Shown here: positions 6,540 to 20,064 of the stretch, one piece after another | Layout of the letters: each line of letters starts with the position of its first letter | How positions within the stretch are numbered: the first letter of the stretch is position 1 | Origin: Novacetimonas hansenii JCM 7643 | GTDB taxonomy: Bacteria; Pseudomonadota; Alphaproteobacteria; Acetobacterales; Acetobacteraceae | DNA: 39,968 bases | NCBI RefSeq assembly: GCF_000964405.1 | Contig: NZ_BANE01000334.1 | Location: 1 to 39,968 of the forward strand | Reading direction: 5' to 3' | The notes under the pieces: generated by a model | The model's input: the letters and a program-made list of their open reading frames with translations, nothing else | Databases searched by the model: none | Told to the model about the DNA's origin: nothing | Program-made: the position numbers and the translations under genes

Positions 6540-6616
6540 TGGCGCACCCGAAAGGACTCGAACCTCTAACCCCCAGATTCGTAGTCTGGTGCTCTATCCA
6601 GTTGAGCTACGGGTGC
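6540..6616 (-). tRNA. tRNA-Arg (anticodon ACG), CCA encoded
   Basis: The minus strand reads GCACCCG-TA-GCTC... and folds into a full cloverleaf. The 7 bp acceptor stem GCACCCG/CGGGTGC is followed by discriminator G and an encoded CCA (6540-6542). The anticodon stem is CCAGA/TCTGG with loop CTACGAA, giving anticodon ACG, which is read as inosine-containing ICG for CGN arginine codons after TadA deamination. The T-arm has GGTTCGAGTCC. Total length is 77 nt including CCA. Confidence 0.97.
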
Positions 6617-10849: not shown

Positions 10850-12385
10850 ATGTCGGATAGAATGGACCCCGTGAATACGATCAATCCCACCCCCGACGAG
10901 TCCCCTGCATCAGGTTCCCTGATCGGGATTTCCCAGCGTACGCCTCCTGCCAACCTCCAGGCAGAACAGGCGTTGCTTGGTGCCATCCTGACGAATAACC
11001 GCGCTTATGACCGTGTCTCCGACTTCCTGACAGGTGCCCATTTTGCCAATGAAGTGAATGGTGTTGTCTATGACACCATTTCCCGGCGGATTGAGGCCGG
11101 GTTACTGGCCGACCCGGTGACGCTGCGCGCGGAGTTCGAGAATTCCGACGCGCTGGGCGCTGTTGGGGGGACAGGCTATCTGCTGAAGCTGGCGGGCGCG
11201 ATGGTCGGCATCATCAATGCCGCCGATTATGGTCGTGCCATCCATGACGCGTGGGTGCGCCGTCAGTTGATCGATATTGGCGAGGATGTCGTCAATACCG
11301 CATTCGGTTCCACCACCGGCATGACCGGTGTGGACCAGATTGCGGCAGGGGAAGAAGCACTGTTCCGCCTGGCCACAGAAAAGGGGCAGGATGGTGGGTT
11401 CCTTGCCTTTGACAAAGCTCTGGCCGAAGCACTTGACGTAGCGCAGCAGGCTTTCAGCCGGGCAGGTGATGTCGTGGGTCTGACTACGGGCCTGCGTGAC
11501 CTCGACAAGAAGACGGGTGGCCTGCATCCGTCGGACCTGCTGATCCTGGCTGGACGTCCCGCCATGGGCAAGACGGCGCTGGCGACCAAGATCGCATTCA
11601 GCGCCGCGCGTGCCCTGATGCGCGAGGTACAGGAAGGTCCGCCGGGTACACAGCCCAAAGGCTCGGTTGCGATTTTCTCACTTGAAATGTCAGCCGAACA
11701 GCTTGCTACCCGTATTCTGTCCGAACAGGCCAGCGTGTCGGGCGAGCGCATCCGCCGCGGCGAGATCGGACAGAAAGAGTTCGATCGTTTCGTGCAGGTC
11801 AGCCGCGAGTTGTCGCAATTGCCGCTGCATATCGACGATACGCCAGCCATTTCTCTGTCGGCCATGCGTACACGCTGTCGCCGCCTGGCGCGTACCAAGG
11901 GGCTGAGCCTGGTGGTGGTTGACTATCTGCAACTGATGCGGCCGTCAGTCGGTACGCGCCCGGAAAGCCGTGTGTTGGAAATCTCCATGATTACGCAGGG
12001 GCTCAAGGCGCTGGCAAAGGAACTGTCGGTGCCGGTCATCGCGCTGTCACAGCTGTCGCGCCAAGTCGAAAGCCGTGAGGACAAGCGCCCGATGCTGTCG
12101 GATCTGCGTGAATCCGGCTCCATTGAGCAGGACGCCGATGCCGTCATGTTTGTCTATCGCGATCAGTATTACCTGCAGCAGCGTCAGCCCAAGGAGACGT
12201 CCTTCGACTCACAGGATAAGTACCAGACTGCGCTTGAGGAATGGCAGCGCAAGATGGACCTTGCCCATAACCGCGCGGAACTGATCCTTGAAAAACAGCG
12301 TCATGGCCCGACCGGCACGGTTCATCTGTTCTTCGAAGGTGAGTTCACGCGGTTCGCGGACCTTGATATGGTCCATGACGGTTGA
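10850..12385 (+). CDS. dnaB: Replicative DNA helicase DnaB
   Basis: This is the hexameric 5'-3' helicase that unwinds DNA ahead of the replisome. The 511-residue protein has the DnaB N-terminal domain (about 28-130; NLQAEQALLGAIL and later YGRAIHDAWVRRQLI). The RecA-like C-terminal domain has Walker A GRPAMGKTAL (about 236-245), the FSLEMSAEQLATRIL segment, Walker B LVVVDYLQLM, the ALSQLSRQVE motif and DLRESGSIEQDAD. The C-terminal end GPTGTVHLFFEGEFTRFADL is typical. No intein is present. M5 (10862) is a possible alternative start. After its stop base composition changes sharply to AT-rich. Confidence 0.97.
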   Translation: MSDRMDPVNTINPTPDESPASGSLIGISQRTPPANLQAEQALLGAILTNNRAYDRVSDFLTGAHFANEVNGVVYDTISRRIEAGLLADPVTLRAEFENSDALGAVGGTGYLLKLAGAMVGIINAADYGRAIHDAWVRRQLIDIGEDVVNTAFGSTTGMTGVDQIAAGEEALFRLATEKGQDGGFLAFDKALAEALDVAQQAFSRAGDVVGLTTGLRDLDKKTGGLHPSDLLILAGRPAMGKTALATKIAFSAARALMREVQEGPPGTQPKGSVAIFSLEMSAEQLATRILSEQASVSGERIRRGEIGQKEFDRFVQVSRELSQLPLHIDDTPAISLSAMRTRCRRLARTKGLSLVVVDYLQLMRPSVGTRPESRVLEISMITQGLKALAKELSVPVIALSQLSRQVESREDKRPMLSDLRESGSIEQDADAVMFVYRDQYYLQQRQPKETSFDSQDKYQTALEEWQRKMDLAHNRAELILEKQRHGPTGTVHLFFEGEFTRFADLDMVHDG

Positions 12386-12719
12386 TGAGAGATGGATGGA
12401 GGCAGGATGACGGTCAGGCTTAATAAGGGTGATCCGCTTCCCATCAGGATTATGAGACAAAACATCATCCCCCGTCATTTCTGGAATAATATTCATTTCC
12501 AGATGTGAAATGTTGGGGGATGAATATTCCGTCGTAGCGCCTCATGTTTTATGGAAGGTGCGGGATAATACTTGGAGTCTCAGGACATGCTATTTTGTCT
12601 TGAGACTTGATGTAGTTGTGAAACTACAGATGTTTCTATCTGGCAGGCTACATCAGCTATTTTATGAATGTTCATACAGGCATCGGAGTATCCGGATGTC
12701 GGAATTCAGGAGGATAATA
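12386..12719. other. AT-rich intergenic region with three stem-loops downstream of dnaB
   Basis: No gene is supported in these 334 bases. Three local inverted repeats stand out. TCTGGAA/TTCCAGA (12480-12503) has a 10-base loop. A 12 bp stem with one G-U pair (12576-12587 with 12596-12607) has an 8-base loop. GTAGTT/AACTAC lies around 12612-12627. None is followed by a long T-run. The high-GC to low-GC transition falls here. Confidence 0.55.
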
Positions 12720-13433
12720 TCATTGAGTGGAATGATAATTTATCGAAAACCACTCTATAAATCTGTTTTCAAGTTCGGTCTTCTTGAGGCTTTCATATGG
12801 TTTCAATTTTGGTTCTTCGATCTGTAGTCTGGAGATATCAAACGGCATATCAAGTTTGGTAATGACGTCGGTCACAGATTGTTTTTGTGCCTCAAGGGCA
12901 TCCTCATAAAAAATTTCAATATAATTTTTAAAGTTTTTCGAGAAACACTTCAGATATTCATCAGATATGGCTATTGCTTTCAGGGCACGATCAATATCCT
13001 CCATGGATACGGTGTCTGCTTTTGAGACTTTCATATCCGCATCGTATGAATGGTAGATATTGCTCTTTCGTGCCATGGCAAGACTTATGGCCTGCTTTAT
13101 CTTGTTTTTTCTGCGGAAGACAATCCAGTATGTATTGTCTCCGAAGAAAATGTCCTTAATTTCTTGGTCTTTACGTGCTTCGCGACTGATGATTGATAAC
13201 TGTGCGCACATAATTTTGCATGATCTATATCCAGATTTGTTTAGATATAGATTTCTTGTTATCGAAAGCATCTCGTCACGTGTAGAGGAGTCTTTAAGAG
13301 TGCTCAATAACTCCCGTGACAGATCCCAGAATTCCTCACCATAAGATTTATGGAATGAGTAAGAAATAAGTTCCGCAAAGAACGTGCTTCCACTCCGCAC
13401 TTCCGATGCCATAAACAGAAATTTCTCACTCAT
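12720..13433 (-). CDS. Stf0-like sulfotransferase
   Basis: This is a probable PAPS-dependent sulfotransferase of the Stf0 type (trehalose 2-sulfotransferase-like), 237 residues. The N-terminal MASEVRSGSTFFAELI (about 8-23) is the 5'-phosphosulfate-binding loop found at the very start of this fold. The segment FRRKNKIKQAISLAMARKSN near residues 106-125 matches the family's R-x-n-QA-x-S-x-x-RA region for the 3'-phosphate. The acceptor is unknown. The neighbours point to a sugar of a surface glycan rather than a trehalose lipid. The ATG at 13433 has GGAG about 11 bases upstream. The gene is the last of a low-GC minus-strand group, 25 bp after the glycosyltransferase stop, so probably co-transcribed with it. 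Family assignment is by motif only. Confidence 0.68.
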   Translation of the reverse strand: MSEKFLFMASEVRSGSTFFAELISYSFHKSYGEEFWDLSRELLSTLKDSSTRDEMLSITRNLYLNKSGYRSCKIMCAQLSIISREARKDQEIKDIFFGDNTYWIVFRRKNKIKQAISLAMARKSNIYHSYDADMKVSKADTVSMEDIDRALKAIAISDEYLKCFSKNFKNYIEIFYEDALEAQKQSVTDVITKLDMPFDISRLQIEEPKLKPYESLKKTELENRFIEWFSINYHSTQ

Positions 13434-13458
13434 TCATTAACACTCCAACGAAATAATA

Positions 13459-15717
13459 TTATGAATGCACGACCTTTGAAGACTCTGTTAGCATTGACTG
13501 TTTATCAGGTGAGGATGTTGGGACATAATCGTCCAGAATTTTAATCAGGTCACTTACCATAACCTGATCAGTGAAACGATTCACATAATCTTTACGTGCT
13601 TGTGTTCCCATTTTTTTGCAGGCGTCAGGGTTGCGTAGGAGATATTCCAGCGTAGATCGCAAGCCTTCCGAATCTCCTGGCTTTATCAGGAAACCGCTTA
13701 CACCGTCTGTTACAACTTCAGGTCCGCCACCTGCATCGCAACCGATGACAGGTTTGCCGAACATCATCGCTTCAAGAAAAACTAGACCAAAGGATTCATA
13801 CCGCGAGGGCGCTATGAATACGTCACAATCCCGATAAAACTGTTTCAGTTCATATTCTTCAACACGCCCATGGAAAATAACCCTGTCCCTGATATCCACC
13901 GGAAGCTCAAGGGCAAGAAATTCCTCTTTATACGTCATCATGTCTGGCCGAAGGATAGTATCGTCACCAACGATATCCAAGATCGCATTAGGGAAATCAT
14001 GCAGTATTTCAGGCACAATTTTCAGGAGAACGTCTATACCTTTTCGGGATTCCAGTCGTCCGACGAAAAGCAGACGGAACGCTTCATCATTCCGGTCCGA
14101 GGGCGGCATGCCTGCAGCCCAGTCTTCCAGTCCATGAGGCGAATAGTAAACCCGGTTTTGGGGTATTTGGATTTTGTATCTTTTTTCAATGTCACGGACG
14201 ATTGCGTGGCTGTTCGCATGCAGGAGCGGTGTATGAGAAATAATGAATTTTTCCATTTCCATAATAGGATGGCCATAGGCCCGCATCCATTCGGTATCTA
14301 TCGCCTTTAATGGCTGGCTGTCGAGCCAGAAGCTCATTGTTGTTTGCAAGGCCACAATCAGCGGGAATGTACTATCAAGGACAAAGGCGATCGGTTCGCA
14401 ATCCCATAGTGGACAATATACGACGTCTATCTTGCGCTTCTCATTGAGATCGCGGATCTCCTGCAGCATGGTTTGGCTATAATCCCAGATATGCTGGGGG
14501 ATATTGCAATCTGCGAGAGGTGAGACAAGAGGGGGTTCGTGATGGTTGATTGCAACGCGATGGACCCATACGCCGTCTTCATAATCCACGGCTGGTGCAA
14601 TGCGCATTTTCGTAAATACATGAACATAATGGCCTAATGCCGCCAGTGACCGTGCGAACTGGGCAATATTACGTGCAATACCGCCATTCTGGCCTGGCGG
14701 ATAATCCTGCGTTACGAAACATATGACACGTCTGGTGCCGGAAGGATAAAGCCGCGGATACTGTAGAAACTTTGAATGGCACTTCTCAAGCGTTTCTTTG
14801 CGCAGATACTTCGCAGGCTGGGTACCTCGTGTCAGGCCATCAACGATAGCCTTATCAGCCTGGGCTAAAAAGCGCTCGACGTCGTCTTTGGTATAAATTC
14901 CTTCACTTTCGCCCCATTCTACGGATTTTGTCCAAGATTTAACATCATCAATACCAGCTTGAACTGTATCTGCGACCGTATGATGATACAGGCCATTGCG
15001 CATGCCAAAATAGACGCGATTCTTAATCAGGGGATACCAGTTTTTGGTAATCTTTTTCTCATCGCGAAGATGGCTGGGGGCATATTTATGATGCACGAAT
15101 GCATCGGGTCTTTGTACGATGGTGTAACCTGCATCGTTTATGCGGCAGCACACATCCGTTTCATCGAGAAAATATTCGTACTCTTCGTCAAATCCACCAA
15201 TTTTCAGAAGAGCCTTGCGACTGAAGGAGCAGTTTGTGCCCAGCAGGTGGGGGACATCCAGACTGAAAGGAAAATTCAGGTGGGGGGTGGGGACATCCCA
15301 ATCGCTTGCATATGCCCGGCGGTTTGTCGTTACATAGCGTGCCTGAAATTCAATGCCGGTATGGTCGTAAACGAACCCTCCCACCGCGCCAACGCTGTCG
15401 TCAGTATAGGATTTGGCCAGATCCGCAAGCCATTCCGGCTCTGGCACGGAATCATCGTCGATAAAGGCGACAACATCGCCATTCGACATGGCGATTCCGA
15501 TATTGCGCGATATCGACAGATTAAATTCTGGACAATGCTCTATCTTTATTTGTCCTTGCAGGCTTTGCAGATATTCTACGGTTCCGTCCGCCGTGGGGCC
15601 AGCAACGACACAAACTTCAAAATGGGGATAAGTCAGGTATTTAAGGCCAGATAATGTGCGCTTGAGATACTCCAAGCGCCCATTGGTGTTGATGACCACT
15701 GAAAAGGTAAGGGGCAT
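13459..15717 (-). CDS. Two-domain glycosyltransferase (GT2 N-terminal, GT4 C-terminal)
   Basis: This protein of about 752 residues appears to carry two sugar-transferase domains. Residues 1-250 form a GT-A fold: FSVVINTNGRLEYLKRTL, then SRNIGIAMSNGDVVAFIDDDSVPE with the DxD-type metal site at about 87-89, and GGFDEEYEYFLDETDVCCR. Residues 330-730 form a GT-B/GT4 fold: FVTQDYPPGQNGGIARN, then LFVGRLESRKGIDVLL and APSRYESFGLVFLEAMMFGKPVIG with the E-x7-E motif. The frame is open upstream to 15810, but that part overlaps the preceding methyltransferase gene by 86 bp. The ATG at 15717 starts 7 bases after that gene's stop and directly at the GT2 domain, so I prefer it. It is likely cytoplasmic, adding two successive sugars to a glycan or lipid-linked acceptor. 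Confidence 0.88.
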   Translation of the reverse strand: MPLTFSVVINTNGRLEYLKRTLSGLKYLTYPHFEVCVVAGPTADGTVEYLQSLQGQIKIEHCPEFNLSISRNIGIAMSNGDVVAFIDDDSVPEPEWLADLAKSYTDDSVGAVGGFVYDHTGIEFQARYVTTNRRAYASDWDVPTPHLNFPFSLDVPHLLGTNCSFSRKALLKIGGFDEEYEYFLDETDVCCRINDAGYTIVQRPDAFVHHKYAPSHLRDEKKITKNWYPLIKNRVYFGMRNGLYHHTVADTVQAGIDDVKSWTKSVEWGESEGIYTKDDVERFLAQADKAIVDGLTRGTQPAKYLRKETLEKCHSKFLQYPRLYPSGTRRVICFVTQDYPPGQNGGIARNIAQFARSLAALGHYVHVFTKMRIAPAVDYEDGVWVHRVAINHHEPPLVSPLADCNIPQHIWDYSQTMLQEIRDLNEKRKIDVVYCPLWDCEPIAFVLDSTFPLIVALQTTMSFWLDSQPLKAIDTEWMRAYGHPIMEMEKFIISHTPLLHANSHAIVRDIEKRYKIQIPQNRVYYSPHGLEDWAAGMPPSDRNDEAFRLLFVGRLESRKGIDVLLKIVPEILHDFPNAILDIVGDDTILRPDMMTYKEEFLALELPVDIRDRVIFHGRVEEYELKQFYRDCDVFIAPSRYESFGLVFLEAMMFGKPVIGCDAGGGPEVVTDGVSGFLIKPGDSEGLRSTLEYLLRNPDACKKMGTQARKDYVNRFTDQVMVSDLIKILDDYVPTSSPDKQSMLTESSKVVHS

Positions 15718-15724
15718 GGCAGGC

Positions 15725-16873
15725 TTATGGCTTACGGGCTGTAACCCGGAATTCGAAACACTTTCCGTTTCGTTTTCCTGAATATTCAACTTTGACATCT
15801 GAAAATCCAACGTGATTGAGCAGCGCAGAAAAACTATCTACTGTCAGCATATTATAGTGAAAATCATTATCGTATTCCTGGCCGCCGAACAGGACTTCCC
15901 GGAAATCATCATAGCTCATTGTACCCGCATTCACGGCTTCAAGCATGGCCCCACCATCTGGTGCGACAGTTACCAGCGTCCCGCCTGTTTCCAGTAGATT
16001 GAACCAATGTGGTAAGATGACGGATTTCAGTATATTGCAAGAAAAATGCTCTACAAGGTGTGCAGAGAGTATTTCTTTTATACTGCCGTTCTCGAACGGT
16101 ATTGAATTCGCATCGCAAACGATATCAATACCAGGTAACTCCCTGCCATCAATGTTTAAATAACCATCAAGAGGGATATGGCCACAACCAACATTGAGCC
16201 GTATGCCGTCTGGCTTCATGGCATCAAGTTTTGCCTGATTGATAATTTTGGGGGCAACAGCTGAATGATCTGTCTTGTGTAGTTTCGCCTGAACCTCGTA
16301 TAGGGTTTCCATGCGCACGAACTCAAGGCGTGAAGATAGTTTTTGTAAATTTTCTTCTAATTCATGATATTTTTTGGAAATATCATTATGTATTTTGGGT
16401 ATTTCACTGGTTTTGTCTTGCAGGTCTTGCTTCAGTTCAGAAAACACCTTGCTTATAGCGTGAAGGTGCATATTTATCTTCTCAAGGGTCTCGTTATGAC
16501 CGGTGATTTCGTCTTGAGTTTTTTCTATTTTTCTGGAACTGGCCTGGAAATTCTGCTGCAGTTCAGAAATTGCCTTGCCAAGAGCACGAAGGTTGGCGCT
16601 TACTGCTTCCACATTCTGGTCAAAGAAGCCCTGCATTTCAAGCACAGATAGTTTTACACGCCGCTCTACATATGCTTTGTCCGGAAGTTCGGAAATAAAA
16701 CCCTGTAATGCGGCCTGAATTTCAGAACCGAATTCTGAAAGCTGCTGTTTGCTCTCATGATGTGCTTGTGCAACTGACTCGGCAATCGCGAACTGGATCC
16801 TTTTTTCCACCCATTCCCGTATGGGCAGGTTTGGCATGATTTGGGTAGTTTTTTGGAATATTTTTTTCATCAT
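15725..16873 (-). CDS. Coiled-coil protein with C-terminal SAM-dependent methyltransferase domain
   Basis: In this 382-residue protein, residues about 20-200 are strongly helical with heptad-like spacing (for example ELKQDLQDKTSEIPKIHNDI and ELEENLQKLSSRLEFV), suggesting a long coiled coil. The C-terminal domain (222-382) is a class I methyltransferase: motif I is RLNVGCGHIPLDGYLNID (about 225-242), the acidic motif II region is IDIVCDANSIPF, and LVEHF follows. Similar domains occur in polysaccharide-cluster methyltransferases that methylate glycan ends, and chain-capping enzymes such as WbdD combine methyltransferase activity with a coiled-coil ruler. A chain-length or capping role here is inference. 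It sits between a small beta-rich gene (9 bp upstream) and the fused glycosyltransferase, in one apparent operon. Two Met codons begin the frame; the first is used. Confidence 0.8.
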   Translation of the reverse strand: MMKKIFQKTTQIMPNLPIREWVEKRIQFAIAESVAQAHHESKQQLSEFGSEIQAALQGFISELPDKAYVERRVKLSVLEMQGFFDQNVEAVSANLRALGKAISELQQNFQASSRKIEKTQDEITGHNETLEKINMHLHAISKVFSELKQDLQDKTSEIPKIHNDISKKYHELEENLQKLSSRLEFVRMETLYEVQAKLHKTDHSAVAPKIINQAKLDAMKPDGIRLNVGCGHIPLDGYLNIDGRELPGIDIVCDANSIPFENGSIKEILSAHLVEHFSCNILKSVILPHWFNLLETGGTLVTVAPDGGAMLEAVNAGTMSYDDFREVLFGGQEYDNDFHYNMLTVDSFSALLNHVGFSDVKVEYSGKRNGKCFEFRVTARKP

Positions 16874-16882
16874 GCCCTCACA

Positions 16883-17296
16883 TTATGCCGTCCAGCGACG
16901 GGCACGCATTGGAATAATTACCAGTTCTTCAATTTCTATCATGATACCGGCAGGGACAAATACCCGAATCTGAAGGTTACTGGCTTCCCCGTAAAGCGAA
17001 AAAGGAACCGCAACTATACCAGCGACTTTATCGAGTATCTCGCGATGGGGAATATTGAGATGGGCGACTTCGATTTCACCAGGATCGGTTACGACATCAA
17101 TTGTAATATTCGCCGGTTTCGCTGGACCAACCCGGCGCATATATATTCCAGCGACGTAGTCTCCCGCTTCCAGCGTGATATAAGGACCAAAGCTTAAATG
17201 GCCCTCCTGTCCGTCTGCAACGCGGAGGCTGCCTTTCTCGTTACGACCAACTGCATTAGGCAATTCAGAGCCTAGAAACCTTCTATAGCGAGTCAT
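16883..17296 (-). CDS. Small beta-rich protein of unknown function in the glycan operon
   Basis: I do not recognise this 137-residue protein. It has no signal peptide or membrane segment and alternates short hydrophobic strands with Gly/Asp/Asn turns (LSFGPYITLEAGDYVAGIYM, ANITIDVV, LQIRVFVPAGIMIEIEELVI). This pattern suggests a jelly-roll/beta-sandwich like carbohydrate-binding modules, including those attached to polysaccharide-export ATPases and glycosyltransferases. It lies 9 bp before the coiled-coil methyltransferase and is the first gene of the low-GC glycan group, so it may be a glycan-binding partner of those enzymes. The fold is inferred from sequence pattern only. Confidence 0.62.
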   Translation of the reverse strand: MTRYRRFLGSELPNAVGRNEKGSLRVADGQEGHLSFGPYITLEAGDYVAGIYMRRVGPAKPANITIDVVTDPGEIEVAHLNIPHREILDKVAGIVAVPFSLYGEASNLQIRVFVPAGIMIEIEELVIIPMRARRWTA

Positions 17297-17719
17297 CTTG
17301 TGACATTCCTTACATATACGTTTTTCAAGATTATCATCGGGTAGAAAAATGTCTAGTCTCTATATGGGATGTATATTTATTTGGAGTTATTTGCTATGAA
17401 AAATAAATTTCATGTAAATAATTAAATTTATAGCGTATGATGATGGAAATTATTGCCATTAACAGACGGCAACATTGTTGCAGATTTGACAAAGGTTATC
17501 GCTCTTACGTCGGTGGTGTGTATGAACTGTTCTGGTGGTTGCCTTGCTTGAAGCCTGTATATATGGGGCAGGCGATATCCCACGAACATTTCTGGTGAGG
17601 GTCTGGTAAGTATGGACAAATATTCTTGCACTGTAATGCATCATGATCGTAACGTATCGCAAGAAAAAGTCTGTATTTCTGCTTTTGTCGACCCAACACC
17701 CAAAATCAGGAGTGTCGTT
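17297..17719. other. AT-rich gap upstream of the glycan operon, containing a possible protein relic
   Basis: These 423 bases hold no intact gene. About 17300-17440 is very AT-rich and probably carries the promoter of the operon that begins at 17296. The minus frame of 17459-17662 is open for 67 codons and includes RNVRGISPAPYIQASS. This weakly matches RDFREPPAPYMSSH in the relic on the other side of galE. At the DNA level the 16 bases from 17557 (ATATATGGGGCAGGCG) recur at about 18950, followed by further patchy identity. It looks like a decayed partial duplicate. Confidence 0.45.
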
Positions 17720-18703
17720 TTATTTCCTATAACCACCAGGGTTCGCAACTCTCCATTGATAGGCATGCTTGATAAGCGTTTCTATATCGCTATATTTAGG
17801 GGACCATCTCACCTCTTTTTTGATTTTCTCTGGATTGGCAATCAGGATCGCGGGATCTCCCTGCCTGCGCTCTCCCACCGACCATGGCACTGGAATACCC
17901 GTTACTTTTTCAACGGTGTGTATGAGTTCCAGATTGGAATGGCCTTGTCCTGTGCCTATATTATAGGAAACGCTTTTTTCATTCAGGCTTGTCATGACAT
18001 CCAGATGTGCGGATGCCAGATCCGTTACATGGATATAGTCACGTATACATGTTCCATCCGGTGTGGGATAGTCATTCCCGAACAATACCAAGGGGGGGCG
18101 ACGCTTTAACCCGGCATCAATTATCAGGGGTAATAAATGCGTTTCCGGGTTATGATCTTCCCCCAGTCGCCCTAATGGGTCGGCCCCGGCGGCATTGAAG
18201 TAGCGCAGGCAGGCACTTTTCAGGCTATGGGCACGATCTGCCCAGTGCAACGCCCTTTCCACTACGAATTTACTCTCTCCGTAGGGAGACGCGGGATCGA
18301 TGGCACAGTTTTCGTCAATCAGGCTATCATCCATGTTGCTGAACAGCGACGCAGTGGAGGACAGGATGAATCTGGGAATTTCGTGTCGCACACAGGCATC
18401 AATTATGACAAATCCACCCAGCCCATTATTGCGCATATATTCAATGGGATTTCGCATGCTGTCGCCAACAAGGGATAGGGCAGCAAAATGTAGCACACCG
18501 TCCCACTGTCCATCGGAAAGTACCTTGTTGATCAGTTCGGAATCAAGCACACTTCCTTCGATAAATCGTGCGCCTTTGGGAACGGCGGATCTGTGGCCGG
18601 TGCTGAGATCATCAAGAATAACAATTTCATGTCCGGCCTCAAGAAATTCCAGACATACATGACTGCCAACGAAGCCTGCTCCACCGGTTACGAAATAACG
18701 CAT
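17720..18703 (-). CDS. galE: UDP-glucose 4-epimerase
   Basis: The enzyme interconverts UDP-glucose and UDP-galactose (or the N-acetyl forms) with tightly bound NAD. The 327-residue protein is an extended SDR with GGAGFVGS (7-14), LDDLSTGHR (30-38), the catalytic SST (115-117) and YGESK (141-145). It also has RYFNAAGADP, a GTCIRDYIHVTDLASAH segment and the late YNIGTGQGHSNLEL motif typical of GalE. The usual SSTAAVYG is SSTASLFS here. Base composition is low GC like the neighbouring glycan genes. The gene is separated from them by a 423 bp gap and preceded by noncoding or relic sequence. It probably supplies UDP-galactose for the glycan made by this island, or serves general galactose metabolism. 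Confidence 0.94.
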   Translation of the reverse strand: MRYFVTGGAGFVGSHVCLEFLEAGHEIVILDDLSTGHRSAVPKGARFIEGSVLDSELINKVLSDGQWDGVLHFAALSLVGDSMRNPIEYMRNNGLGGFVIIDACVRHEIPRFILSSTASLFSNMDDSLIDENCAIDPASPYGESKFVVERALHWADRAHSLKSACLRYFNAAGADPLGRLGEDHNPETHLLPLIIDAGLKRRPPLVLFGNDYPTPDGTCIRDYIHVTDLASAHLDVMTSLNEKSVSYNIGTGQGHSNLELIHTVEKVTGIPVPWSVGERRQGDPAILIANPEKIKKEVRWSPKYSDIETLIKHAYQWRVANPGGYRK

Positions 18704-19464
18704 AAATCAGAATCCATCACTTTACGTTGTTTATATTTACTTTCGGGCAACCTGTGGATTTATCTTGGCCTTATGCCCATATTTACGAGGTGGTCCAGTA
18801 TCGGGGGCATGGAATCATCAGGCTGTACAAGCAGGTTGTTATGGGATGGTCCTCTGCCTTGAACTGTGCATTCATAATGTTCATCCTGTTTGACAGTGAA
18901 GAACCATCCACCCTGTCTGGTATGGCTATCATGGTGCATGTGGGACGACATATATGGGGCAGGCGGTTCACGAAAGTCCCGGTGACCCTGACCGGAATAA
19001 GGGAGTCTTTCCCGCATGCCGCTACATAATACAACAGGAAGGCCGAGAAGCCGCGTATATGGAAAGACCTTGGCCATTTCATTCCGATCGCAGATGATTC
19101 CGTCGGCGAGAATGATATTCATTAGCCCGTTCCGGTTAGTTACAATACCTAATACATAGTTACGATGAACGCATACGAAAATCTGTTTTTGGAATCAATA
19201 GCTACCTGCTGAACGTCAGAAAGAACCGCCATTTTGGCGTGATATATGTTCCGGCCGTTTGCCTGTTGTCCAGCTTCTGATATCTTCATTTCATAATCCG
19301 AAATAATTTTCGGATGTGATTGGTCGTGATTAACGTATTTCGTGATATTATGGTATGGAATCATGGTAGATTTATGGTCATGGCACGGAAAAATTTCTGG
19401 AAAATGCAATATTTTCTGATTCTGTGATGGCTGTAATCTGGCATATATTTTCCAAACGTGCCGC
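18704..19464. pseudogene. Possible decayed coding sequence between galE and the YigZ-family gene
   Basis: These 761 bases contain no intact recognisable gene. On the minus strand a frame is open from about 19198 to 18760 (VTNRNGLMNIILADGIICDR... to the stop). Another frame covers 19149-19366 (from MIPYHN to FIVTMY) and stops where the first continues, which would fit a frameshifted old gene. Within it, RDFREPPAPYMSSH (about 18940-18980) resembles a stretch on the far side of galE, supported by a shared 16-base DNA block. I cannot name the family. There are no strong ribosome binding sites. The low-GC segment ends here, at the 3' end of the YigZ-family gene. The galE promoter should lie just above 18703. 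Confidence 0.35.
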
Positions 19465-20064
19465 CTAATCTTCCACTGCCCGGATAACGGCCTGCCCGCG
19501 CGTGATGTCGGTGATCCGCGCCCGCGCTTCTTCTTCGCGCACCTGCGGCAGGGTGATGCGCAGGTCCACGCCACCCGCGCCGAATGTTTCCTCATCAATC
19601 GTGGCGTCCATCGCCAGAAGGCGCGCGCGGATCAGGGCATGGTCGGAAAAGCCGCAGTGGAACCTCAGCCCCACCATCGGCACGATGGGCCGTGACGGCG
19701 CGGTACGCAGACATTCCGCCGCCGTCCCGCCATAGGCCCGGACCAGCCCGCCCGCGCCCAACTTGATGCCCCCGAACCAGCGCGTGACCACGACCACGGT
19801 GTGGTCGAAGCCCTGTCCCTCGATCACCTGCAGGATGGGCCGCCCCGCCGTGCCGCCGGGTTCGCCGTCATCATCGCTGCGATAGGCCTGCCCGATGCGA
19901 TAGGCCCAGCAGTTATGGGTGGCATCGGGATCGCTGACATCGGCGATGAACGCCATCGCCGCCTCGGCCGAGGATACGGGGGCCGCCTGCGCCAGGAACA
20001 GGCTTTTTCGGACTTCACGTTCCAGCATCACCTGCTGTGTCAGGATCAGGGATGTCCCGCTCAC
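19465..20064 (-). CDS. IMPACT/YigZ family protein
   Basis: This is a conserved cytoplasmic protein of the UPF0029/IMPACT family, about 199 residues. The hallmark DDGEPGGTAGRPIL (about 76-89 from the ORF start) is present, followed by VVVVTRWFGGIKLGAGGLVRAYGG, the most conserved block of the family. The C-terminal half is the variable RNA-binding-like domain. E. coli YigZ has no settled role; eukaryotic IMPACT regulates GCN2. The frame is open back into radA, but the GTG at 20064 starts 8 bases after the radA stop with GGGGAG upstream, which fits a short-spaced operon. A start at the downstream ATG (MLEREVRKSL, 20028) is possible. Confidence 0.88.
   Translation of the reverse strand: MSGTSLILTQQVMLEREVRKSLFLAQAAPVSSAEAAMAFIADVSDPDATHNCWAYRIGQAYRSDDDGEPGGTAGRPILQVIEGQGFDHTVVVVTRWFGGIKLGAGGLVRAYGGTAAECLRTAPSRPIVPMVGLRFHCGFSDHALIRARLLAMDATIDEETFGAGGVDLRITLPQVREEEARARITDITRGQAVIRAVED

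Follow-up and report, generated by a model that had tools for sequence, protein, structure and literature searches.

In Novacetimonas hansenii JCM 7643, five putative glycan-related genes lie in a block of low G+C content between dnaB and yigZ-radA on contig NZ_BANE01000334.1 (assembly GCF_000964405.1). Did this block arrive from elsewhere, and do its products act together on one surface glycan? We analysed the whole 39,968-bp stretch of DNA around it (positions 1 to 39,968 of the contig), referred to here as the window, and compared it with related genomes. The block is with high confidence a horizontally acquired insertion, and its coiled-coil methyltransferase (MT) and GT2-GT4 dual glycosyltransferase (GT) form a pair that recurs in alpha-, beta- and gammaproteobacteria, frequently close to ATP-binding cassette (ABC) exporter genes. 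The features under discussion are as follows, CBM denoting a carbohydrate-binding module.

12,386–19,464, no strand: inserted low-G+C block (G+C 0.452; ends set by the empty site of congener G001)
17,720–18,703, minus strand: galE, UDP-glucose 4-epimerase (TIGR01179, 370.6 bits, cut-off 262.3)
16,883–17,296, minus strand: stand-alone CBM-fold (jelly-roll) protein, 137 aa (structure model, fold matches, homologues in relatives)
15,725–16,873, minus strand: coiled coil plus class I MT, 382 aa, proposed chain terminator or ruler (structure model, fold matches, periodicity)
13,459–15,810, minus strand: proposed polymerase, a dual GT2-GT4 enzyme listed with 783 aa (PF00535, E 8.3e-24; PF00534, E 1e-40)
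12,720–13,433, minus strand: Stf0-like sulfotransferase, 237 aa (Pfam PF09037, E 2.6e-7, 30.8 bits, cut-off 22)

The low-G+C block and its acquisition

The block spans 7,079 bp with a G+C content of 45%, compared with 62% in its flanks. In steps of 500 bp, G+C falls from 0.60–0.62 in dnaB to 0.38–0.52 between 12,501 and 19,500 and returns to 0.63–0.69 between 19,501 and 21,500 (yigZ and radA). The 13 steps inside the block (12,501–19,000; mean 0.454, maximum 0.520) differ from the 64 steps outside it (mean 0.617, standard deviation 0.041, minimum 0.480; Mann-Whitney p = 2.5e-8), the boundary steps 12,001–12,500 and 19,001–19,500 being excluded from both sets. Codon use, assessed as G+C at third codon positions (GC3), is 0.42–0.49 in the five block genes and 0.68–0.81 in six flanking genes. 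Homology to congener G001 ends at 12,387, two positions past the end of the dnaB stop (12,385), and restarts at 19,469, the yigZ stop lying at 19,465. The preliminary description of this locus, made from the sequence alone, had placed the fall and recovery of base composition and the limits of the block at these same points, and both placements are borne out. All five genes lie on the minus strand with intact frames, as it had also stated, and family scans agree with its naming of galE, the GT2-GT4 fusion and the Stf0-family sulfotransferase. Four of the genes (CBM-fold, MT, GT and sulfotransferase) are closely packed, and a gap of 423 bp lies between the end of galE and the start of the CBM-fold gene downstream.

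We regard the block as acquired because the dnaB-yigZ gap measures 88 bp in G001 and 146 bp in G003, two of the three congeners, and holds other cargo in the third, G002. The G002 interval, of at least about 9 kb, spans an assembly gap between two contigs assumed to belong together (L159, L060), and its cargo comprises a beta-helix protein and a GT4 enzyme (both by Pfam) plus two further frames. One cargo protein without a Pfam match has a C-terminal part 27% identical to the CBM-fold protein of the block; apart from this domain, none of the five genes was found in the dnaB-yigZ stretches of the congeners, and MT had no genome-wide match in any of the three. Among 299 Acetobacteraceae genomes, strong MT matches were confined to three, namely N. 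hansenii itself (G000), G128 and G113, those in the latter two beginning at position 81 of the 379 model positions; 33 further genomes gave weak or partial matches. In a GT tree of 24 rows (L017, L023 and L033 were left out, as was L028, which has a split frame), the window groups with four sphingomonad/Erythrobacteraceae-type loci (97/99) and with a gammaproteobacterial metagenome-assembled genome (100/100), and the Acetobacteraceae rows G128 and G113 are placed elsewhere. Horizontal acquisition, as proposed in the preliminary description, is thus supported by the empty sites, the low G+C content and the grouping of GT with sphingomonads; a comparison of the dnaB-radA interval did not find the same five genes, at normal base composition, in most relatives.

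The methyltransferase–glycosyltransferase pair

The MT protein is modelled as a helix of 137 residues (66–202) followed by a mixed alpha/beta domain from residue 213 (mean predicted local distance difference test score, pLDDT, 79.8; predicted template-modelling score 0.49; first 60 residues poor). Its fold matches, judged from the best 50 of 1,317, are mainly class I S-adenosylmethionine-dependent MTs, and family scans returned weak matches only, mostly of the coiled-coil type and under curated cut-offs. No kinase accompanies the MT domain, which is of a generic class I type and has a glycine motif at residue 226. The coil has a heptad-like period of 3.52, with none of 500 shuffles as periodic; such periodicity also stands out in the homologue from L014 (0 of 500 shuffles) and less so in L034 (11 of 500). 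The coil occupies the N-terminal part of the protein and the MT domain its C-terminal part, and a basic N-terminal pattern recurs in the alignment of relatives (A2). Two motifs, presumably the expected ones, mark the neighbouring GT: DDD (residue 118) and ESFGLVFLE (residue 672). As listed, with a TTG start at 15,810, its frame runs into the end of the MT gene, and the true start may lie downstream. The highest identity of GT is 62% over 764 columns, to a protein of Sphingomonas immobilis.

A scan of the genome collection yielded 45 GT loci, among them 25 full-length and 18 partial-GT loci. In 19 of the 25 full-length loci an MT match lies at most 1.5 kb upstream of GT and shares its strand; the figure becomes 19 of 27 if L046 and L047 are kept, two loci flagged as full-length that were dropped for matching at about 30% identity in scattered pieces. 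In 18 of these 19 pairs the genes overlap or lie within 60 bp of each other, the spacing in L013 being 793 bp. The preliminary description had envisaged a five-gene system, and of this the MT and GT2-GT4 pair recurs, joined in one clade by the CBM-fold gene, but the five genes do not stand as a unit. Across the GT loci the five proteins do not co-occur as a conserved set: galE, beside which the genome has a second galE-like gene, and the sulfotransferase gene, with a homologue near one of the 45 GT loci (L030), are irregular neighbours of the pair. A keyword search of open-licence PubMed Central (PMC) papers found no description of the MT and GT2-GT4 pair, although other names could escape such a search.

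No exporter genes are present in the block. In relatives, a KpsT/Wzt-like ATPase, detected by BLAST with one KpsT query, occurs in the retrieved flanks (at most some 11 kb) of 14 of the 25 full-length GT loci. Of the 18 partial-GT loci, a weak control that comes from other taxa and often from short contigs, one has such a match (L041, at 23% identity). Genes resembling kpsT, kpsM and kpsE lie near GT in L014, L015, L030, L031, L034 and L038, accompanied by kpsC and kpsS in L030 and L031 and by kpsS in L038; the ATPase is of the Kps type in six loci, with a KpsT 48–54% identical to that of N. hansenii. Pfam further identifies Wzt_C in L017, L020, L021, L029 and L037 and ABC2_membrane in L017, L018, L020, L021 and L034. 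The exporter call comes from BLAST only in L018, L024 and L026, with an ABC2_membrane match in L018 and the ATPase alone scanned in L026. In Burkholderia sp. BCC1644 (L030), a single 22-kb stretch combines Stf0-, ManC-, KpsC-, Wza-, MT-, GT2-GT4-, KpsT-, KpsM-, KpsE- and KpsS-like genes.

N. hansenii itself encodes KpsT-, KpsC-, KpsS-, ManC-, KpsM-, KpsE- and Wza-like proteins on another contig (C296). Pfam backs all of those scanned except KpsE; KpsE and ManC are presumed assignments, made in part from position. The same kps set is present in all three congeners, with kpsM cut by the end of the stretch in G002. The N. hansenii genome contains four ABC2_membrane matches, one of them in the capsule setting on C296 and two on contig C299. 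Of the two further Acetobacteraceae genomes carrying the pair, G113 gave Capsule_synth (KpsC/KpsS-family) matches and G128, which is 84% complete, gave none. Contig C296 also carries two low-G+C GT-like genes (0.45 and 0.51; L084 399–4209) beside a second Wza-like gene, near kps.

A candidate chain-length ruler and its rivals

What might such a cassette do? We hypothesize, giving the idea slightly less than an even chance, that the acquired genes form a cytoplasmic cassette building a surface polysaccharide that is exported by the Kps-type ABC system which N. hansenii encodes elsewhere in its genome. GalE would supply UDP-hexose and the GT2-GT4 fusion would form two alternating linkages, thereby polymerising the chain. 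With its N-terminal end, near the membrane, the coiled-coil protein would recruit this polymerase, and its coil would hold the MT domain at a fixed distance from the polymerase; only chains reaching the MT would be methylated at the non-reducing end and then stop growing. The CBM-fold protein would bind the glycan, the Stf0-like enzyme would add sulfate, and the chain would leave through the Kps-type exporter. From the anatomy of the block we infer these enzyme activities, the glycan, the ruler function and the link to the exporter. A surface-glycan role, as suggested in the preliminary description, is supported; its methyl and sulfate decorations are possible, although the MT with its coil may terminate chains instead of decorating them.

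The region preceding the MT motif varies from 157 to 757 residues across 20 proteins, where starts are those of the longest frames and some proteins carry other N-terminal regions; the extra regions N-terminal to the coil in L013, L030 and L031 presumably resemble DUF4214 repeats. The longest such region, in Sphingomonas glacialis (L012), contains eight tandem copies of a 201-bp unit (L012 1261–2874). In L015 and L034, an MT-less protein of 205 and 187 residues, respectively, takes the slot that separates the CBM-fold gene from GT; L034 has a gene with an FkbM methyltransferase domain (Pfam) after GT, and L015 has a gene of the same similarity cluster in that position. The long helix, the range of lengths before the MT motif, the repeat extension and the MT-less slot proteins fit, without proving, a ruler or scaffold comparable to that of WbdD and its relatives.

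In Escherichia coli O9a (Klebsiella O3), the polymerase WbdA, a dual GT, is separate from the coiled-coil MT terminator WbdD, and export is ABC-dependent (PMC3482155, PMC11231755). The block likewise has a dual-GT gene beside a coiled-coil MT gene, and differs in its GT2 plus GT4 polymerase and its separate CBM-fold protein. ORF6 of Klebsiella O7 is described as one polypeptide with an N-terminal MT, kinase, CBM and coil followed by two GT2 modules; relatives of ORF6 are reported in alphaproteobacteria, and homologues of ORF6 and ORF7 in the acetic-acid bacterium Gluconacetobacter diazotrophicus (PMC11231755). Like ORF6, the block brings together within a single assembly system an MT, a pair of GT modules, a coiled coil and a CBM-like domain; it is set apart by its separate proteins, a coil that precedes the MT, the GT2-GT4 combination and the lack of a kinase. 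Coiled-coil terminators are described in enterobacteria, and sequence-based reports extend them to other bacteria, among them an acetic-acid bacterium (PMC11231755). Versions with an MT have already been reported in alphaproteobacteria; the block appears to differ in layout, not in principle. Kps (group 2-like) loci offer a further parallel, with Kps-like genes near GT in the six relatives named above and kps in trans in N. hansenii.

Several observations weigh against a WbdD-like ruler coupled to a resident exporter. The polarity of the protein is the reverse of that of WbdD, from which it also differs in having no kinase. A search of the MT profile against PDB sequences (E <= 0.01) gave two hits, both to coiled-coil stretches of nucleoporins and neither to WbdD, and WbdD is not named among the best 50 of the 1,317 fold matches. 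The profile search thus found no sequence homology to WbdD and MT is for this reason not filed under WbdD, although it may work like WbdD without being its homologue by sequence. Heptad-like periodicity is not conspicuous in the homologues from L012, L015, L021 and L030 (42, 41, 60 and 103 of 500 shuffles as periodic; a control GT stretch gave 94). The MT query matched nothing in the slot proteins of L015 and L034, which resemble the coil of the window by eye only, and since periodicity does not stand out in L015, its 'coil' is called from appearance and weak family matches. No exporter ATPase was found in 11 of the 25 full-length loci; the flank is clearly cut in six of them, and L022, L025, L028 and L032 lack a detected ATPase despite about 10 kb on each side. 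As the kps locus is also present in congeners without the block, the connection to the resident exporter is one that we infer. Nor does a Kps partner imply a terminator, since the ABC-exported capsule of Haemophilus influenzae type b is reported to lack a chain-terminating residue (PMC11231755).

The generic class I domain without a kinase and the four well-flanked relatives lacking an ATPase also agree with a simpler explanation, in which MT is an ordinary side-group O-methyltransferase whose coil only oligomerises or tethers it to GT2-GT4, and a lipopolysaccharide O-chain or an exopolysaccharide (EPS) is decorated or extended without length control. N. hansenii may provide a setting for this on contig C258, where a gene cluster looks, by eye, like a putative acetan-type EPS locus. 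The wide variation of the region before the MT, with its tandem-repeat extension in L012, the retention of an MT-less slot protein in L015 and L034 and the recurrence of ABC exporter genes beside the pair all argue against it, and we consider this explanation a serious competitor that is nonetheless more probably wrong than right.

Alternatively, the block could be a loose set of glycan genes assembled at this site by separate events and sharing no joint product. galE stands 423 bp apart from the other genes and is flanked by an exact direct repeat:

17,559–17,574, minus strand: first copy of the exact 16-bp direct repeat flanking galE
18,950–18,965, minus strand: second copy of this 16-bp repeat, across galE from the first

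The repeat has two matches in the window against 0.03 expected by chance and may mark a separate capture of galE. Together with the irregular association of galE and the sulfotransferase with the pair, and with the other cargo at the same site in G002 and G141, it favours piecemeal assembly. Against this stand the close packing and intact frames of the CBM-fold, MT, GT and sulfotransferase genes and the recurrence in sphingomonads of the CBM-fold gene, MT (or the slot protein) and GT, which make a set without joint product improbable. That the cassette is silent or a relic, as its G+C and GC3 unlike those of flanking genes might suggest, is very improbable given the five open frames and the retention of motifs presumed to be the expected ones.

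Returning to the proposed polymer cassette, its most interesting part is the dual GT paired with a reversed-polarity coiled-coil MT, which gives a testable ruler-type hypothesis. More broadly, and as a tentative idea more likely to fail than to hold, the relatives may represent a widespread family of machines with a GT2-GT4 polymerase, a reversed-polarity coiled-coil ruler, a swappable cap (its own MT, or an FkbM-type enzyme in trans where the coil stands alone) and, in one clade, a CBM-fold partner, the cassette passing between bacteria without an exporter and using the resident Kps system. If the cassette hypothesis is true, alpha-, beta- and gammaproteobacteria possess a second terminator layout, with the coil first, the cap last and a GT2-GT4 polymerase; the natural series of lengths before the cap (157–757 residues) would suit a direct test of the ruler model; and a bacterium could change its surface polymer by acquiring a short cassette and relying for export on a system already present.

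Accompanying genes and the insertion site

At E values up to 0.1, the CBM-fold protein matched no family in either Pfam or NCBIfam. Its structure model (pLDDT 89.9) was compared with the PDB by Foldseek, and many of the top matches are CBMs (CBM6, CBM4, CBM22 and CBM29 among others; E from 1.5e-4), with TM-scores of 0.4–0.7 at most and interspersed with jelly rolls of other kinds, for instance Cry toxin domains and a plant hinokiresinol synthase. Homologous genes occur in six of the 45 GT loci (L012, L014, L015, L019, L034 and L036), two of them partial, and the GTs of these loci are 55–63% identical to that of the window. GalE-like genes (E < 1e-50) lie directly upstream of MT in L021, L025, L026 and L037. 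The second galE-like gene of N. hansenii, on contig C258, is 55% identical over 325 aa to that of the block, which may therefore be dispensable and not needed by the cassette.

The sulfotransferase contains RSGST, a presumed functional motif, near its N-terminus. It shares Pfam family PF09037 with the Stf0 trehalose 2-sulfotransferase but scores far under the corresponding NCBIfam cut-off (23.5 bits, cut-off 400), and no PDB sequence match was found up to E 0.1. Its homologue in Burkholderia sp. BCC1644 is 45% identical and itself exceeds the PF09037 cut-off. N. hansenii also has an adenosine 5'-phosphosulfate kinase match, for the supply of 3'-phosphoadenosine 5'-phosphosulfate.

The sole tRNA of the window lies at 6,540–6,616, and no RNA families were found between 12,000 and 19,800. 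The only repeat shared by the block ends is 14 nt long with one mismatch (12,484 and 19,110), and no second genomic copy of 18,704–19,464 was found. Frames for a transposase or an integrase were not noticed within the block, although no search was aimed at them. A plasmid origin was considered and rejected: a DNA search (19 records) matched the galE part only, and among plasmid proteins the GT matches were below 60% identity with none spanning 80% of the query, MT had one weak partial match and the CBM-fold protein none.

The flanks could be related in seven genomes, four with an empty site and three with differing cargo, G002 being one of the three by way of its assembly gap. In another genus, the dnaB-yigZ gap is 24 bp in G231 and G262, and G141 carries 4.0 kb of cargo, which from the look of the sequence encodes a GT and a methyltransferase. 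The idea of the site as a family-wide hot spot finds no support outside a few genomes, with dnaB at most 1.5 kb from yigZ in 4 of 29 stretches and both genes present together in 1 of 10 longer ones. In G128, from another genus, an MT-GT-GT trio (L113 8051–12573) lies about 3 kb upstream of dnaB, and homology of L113 to the same-genus genome G022 ends between this trio and dnaB.

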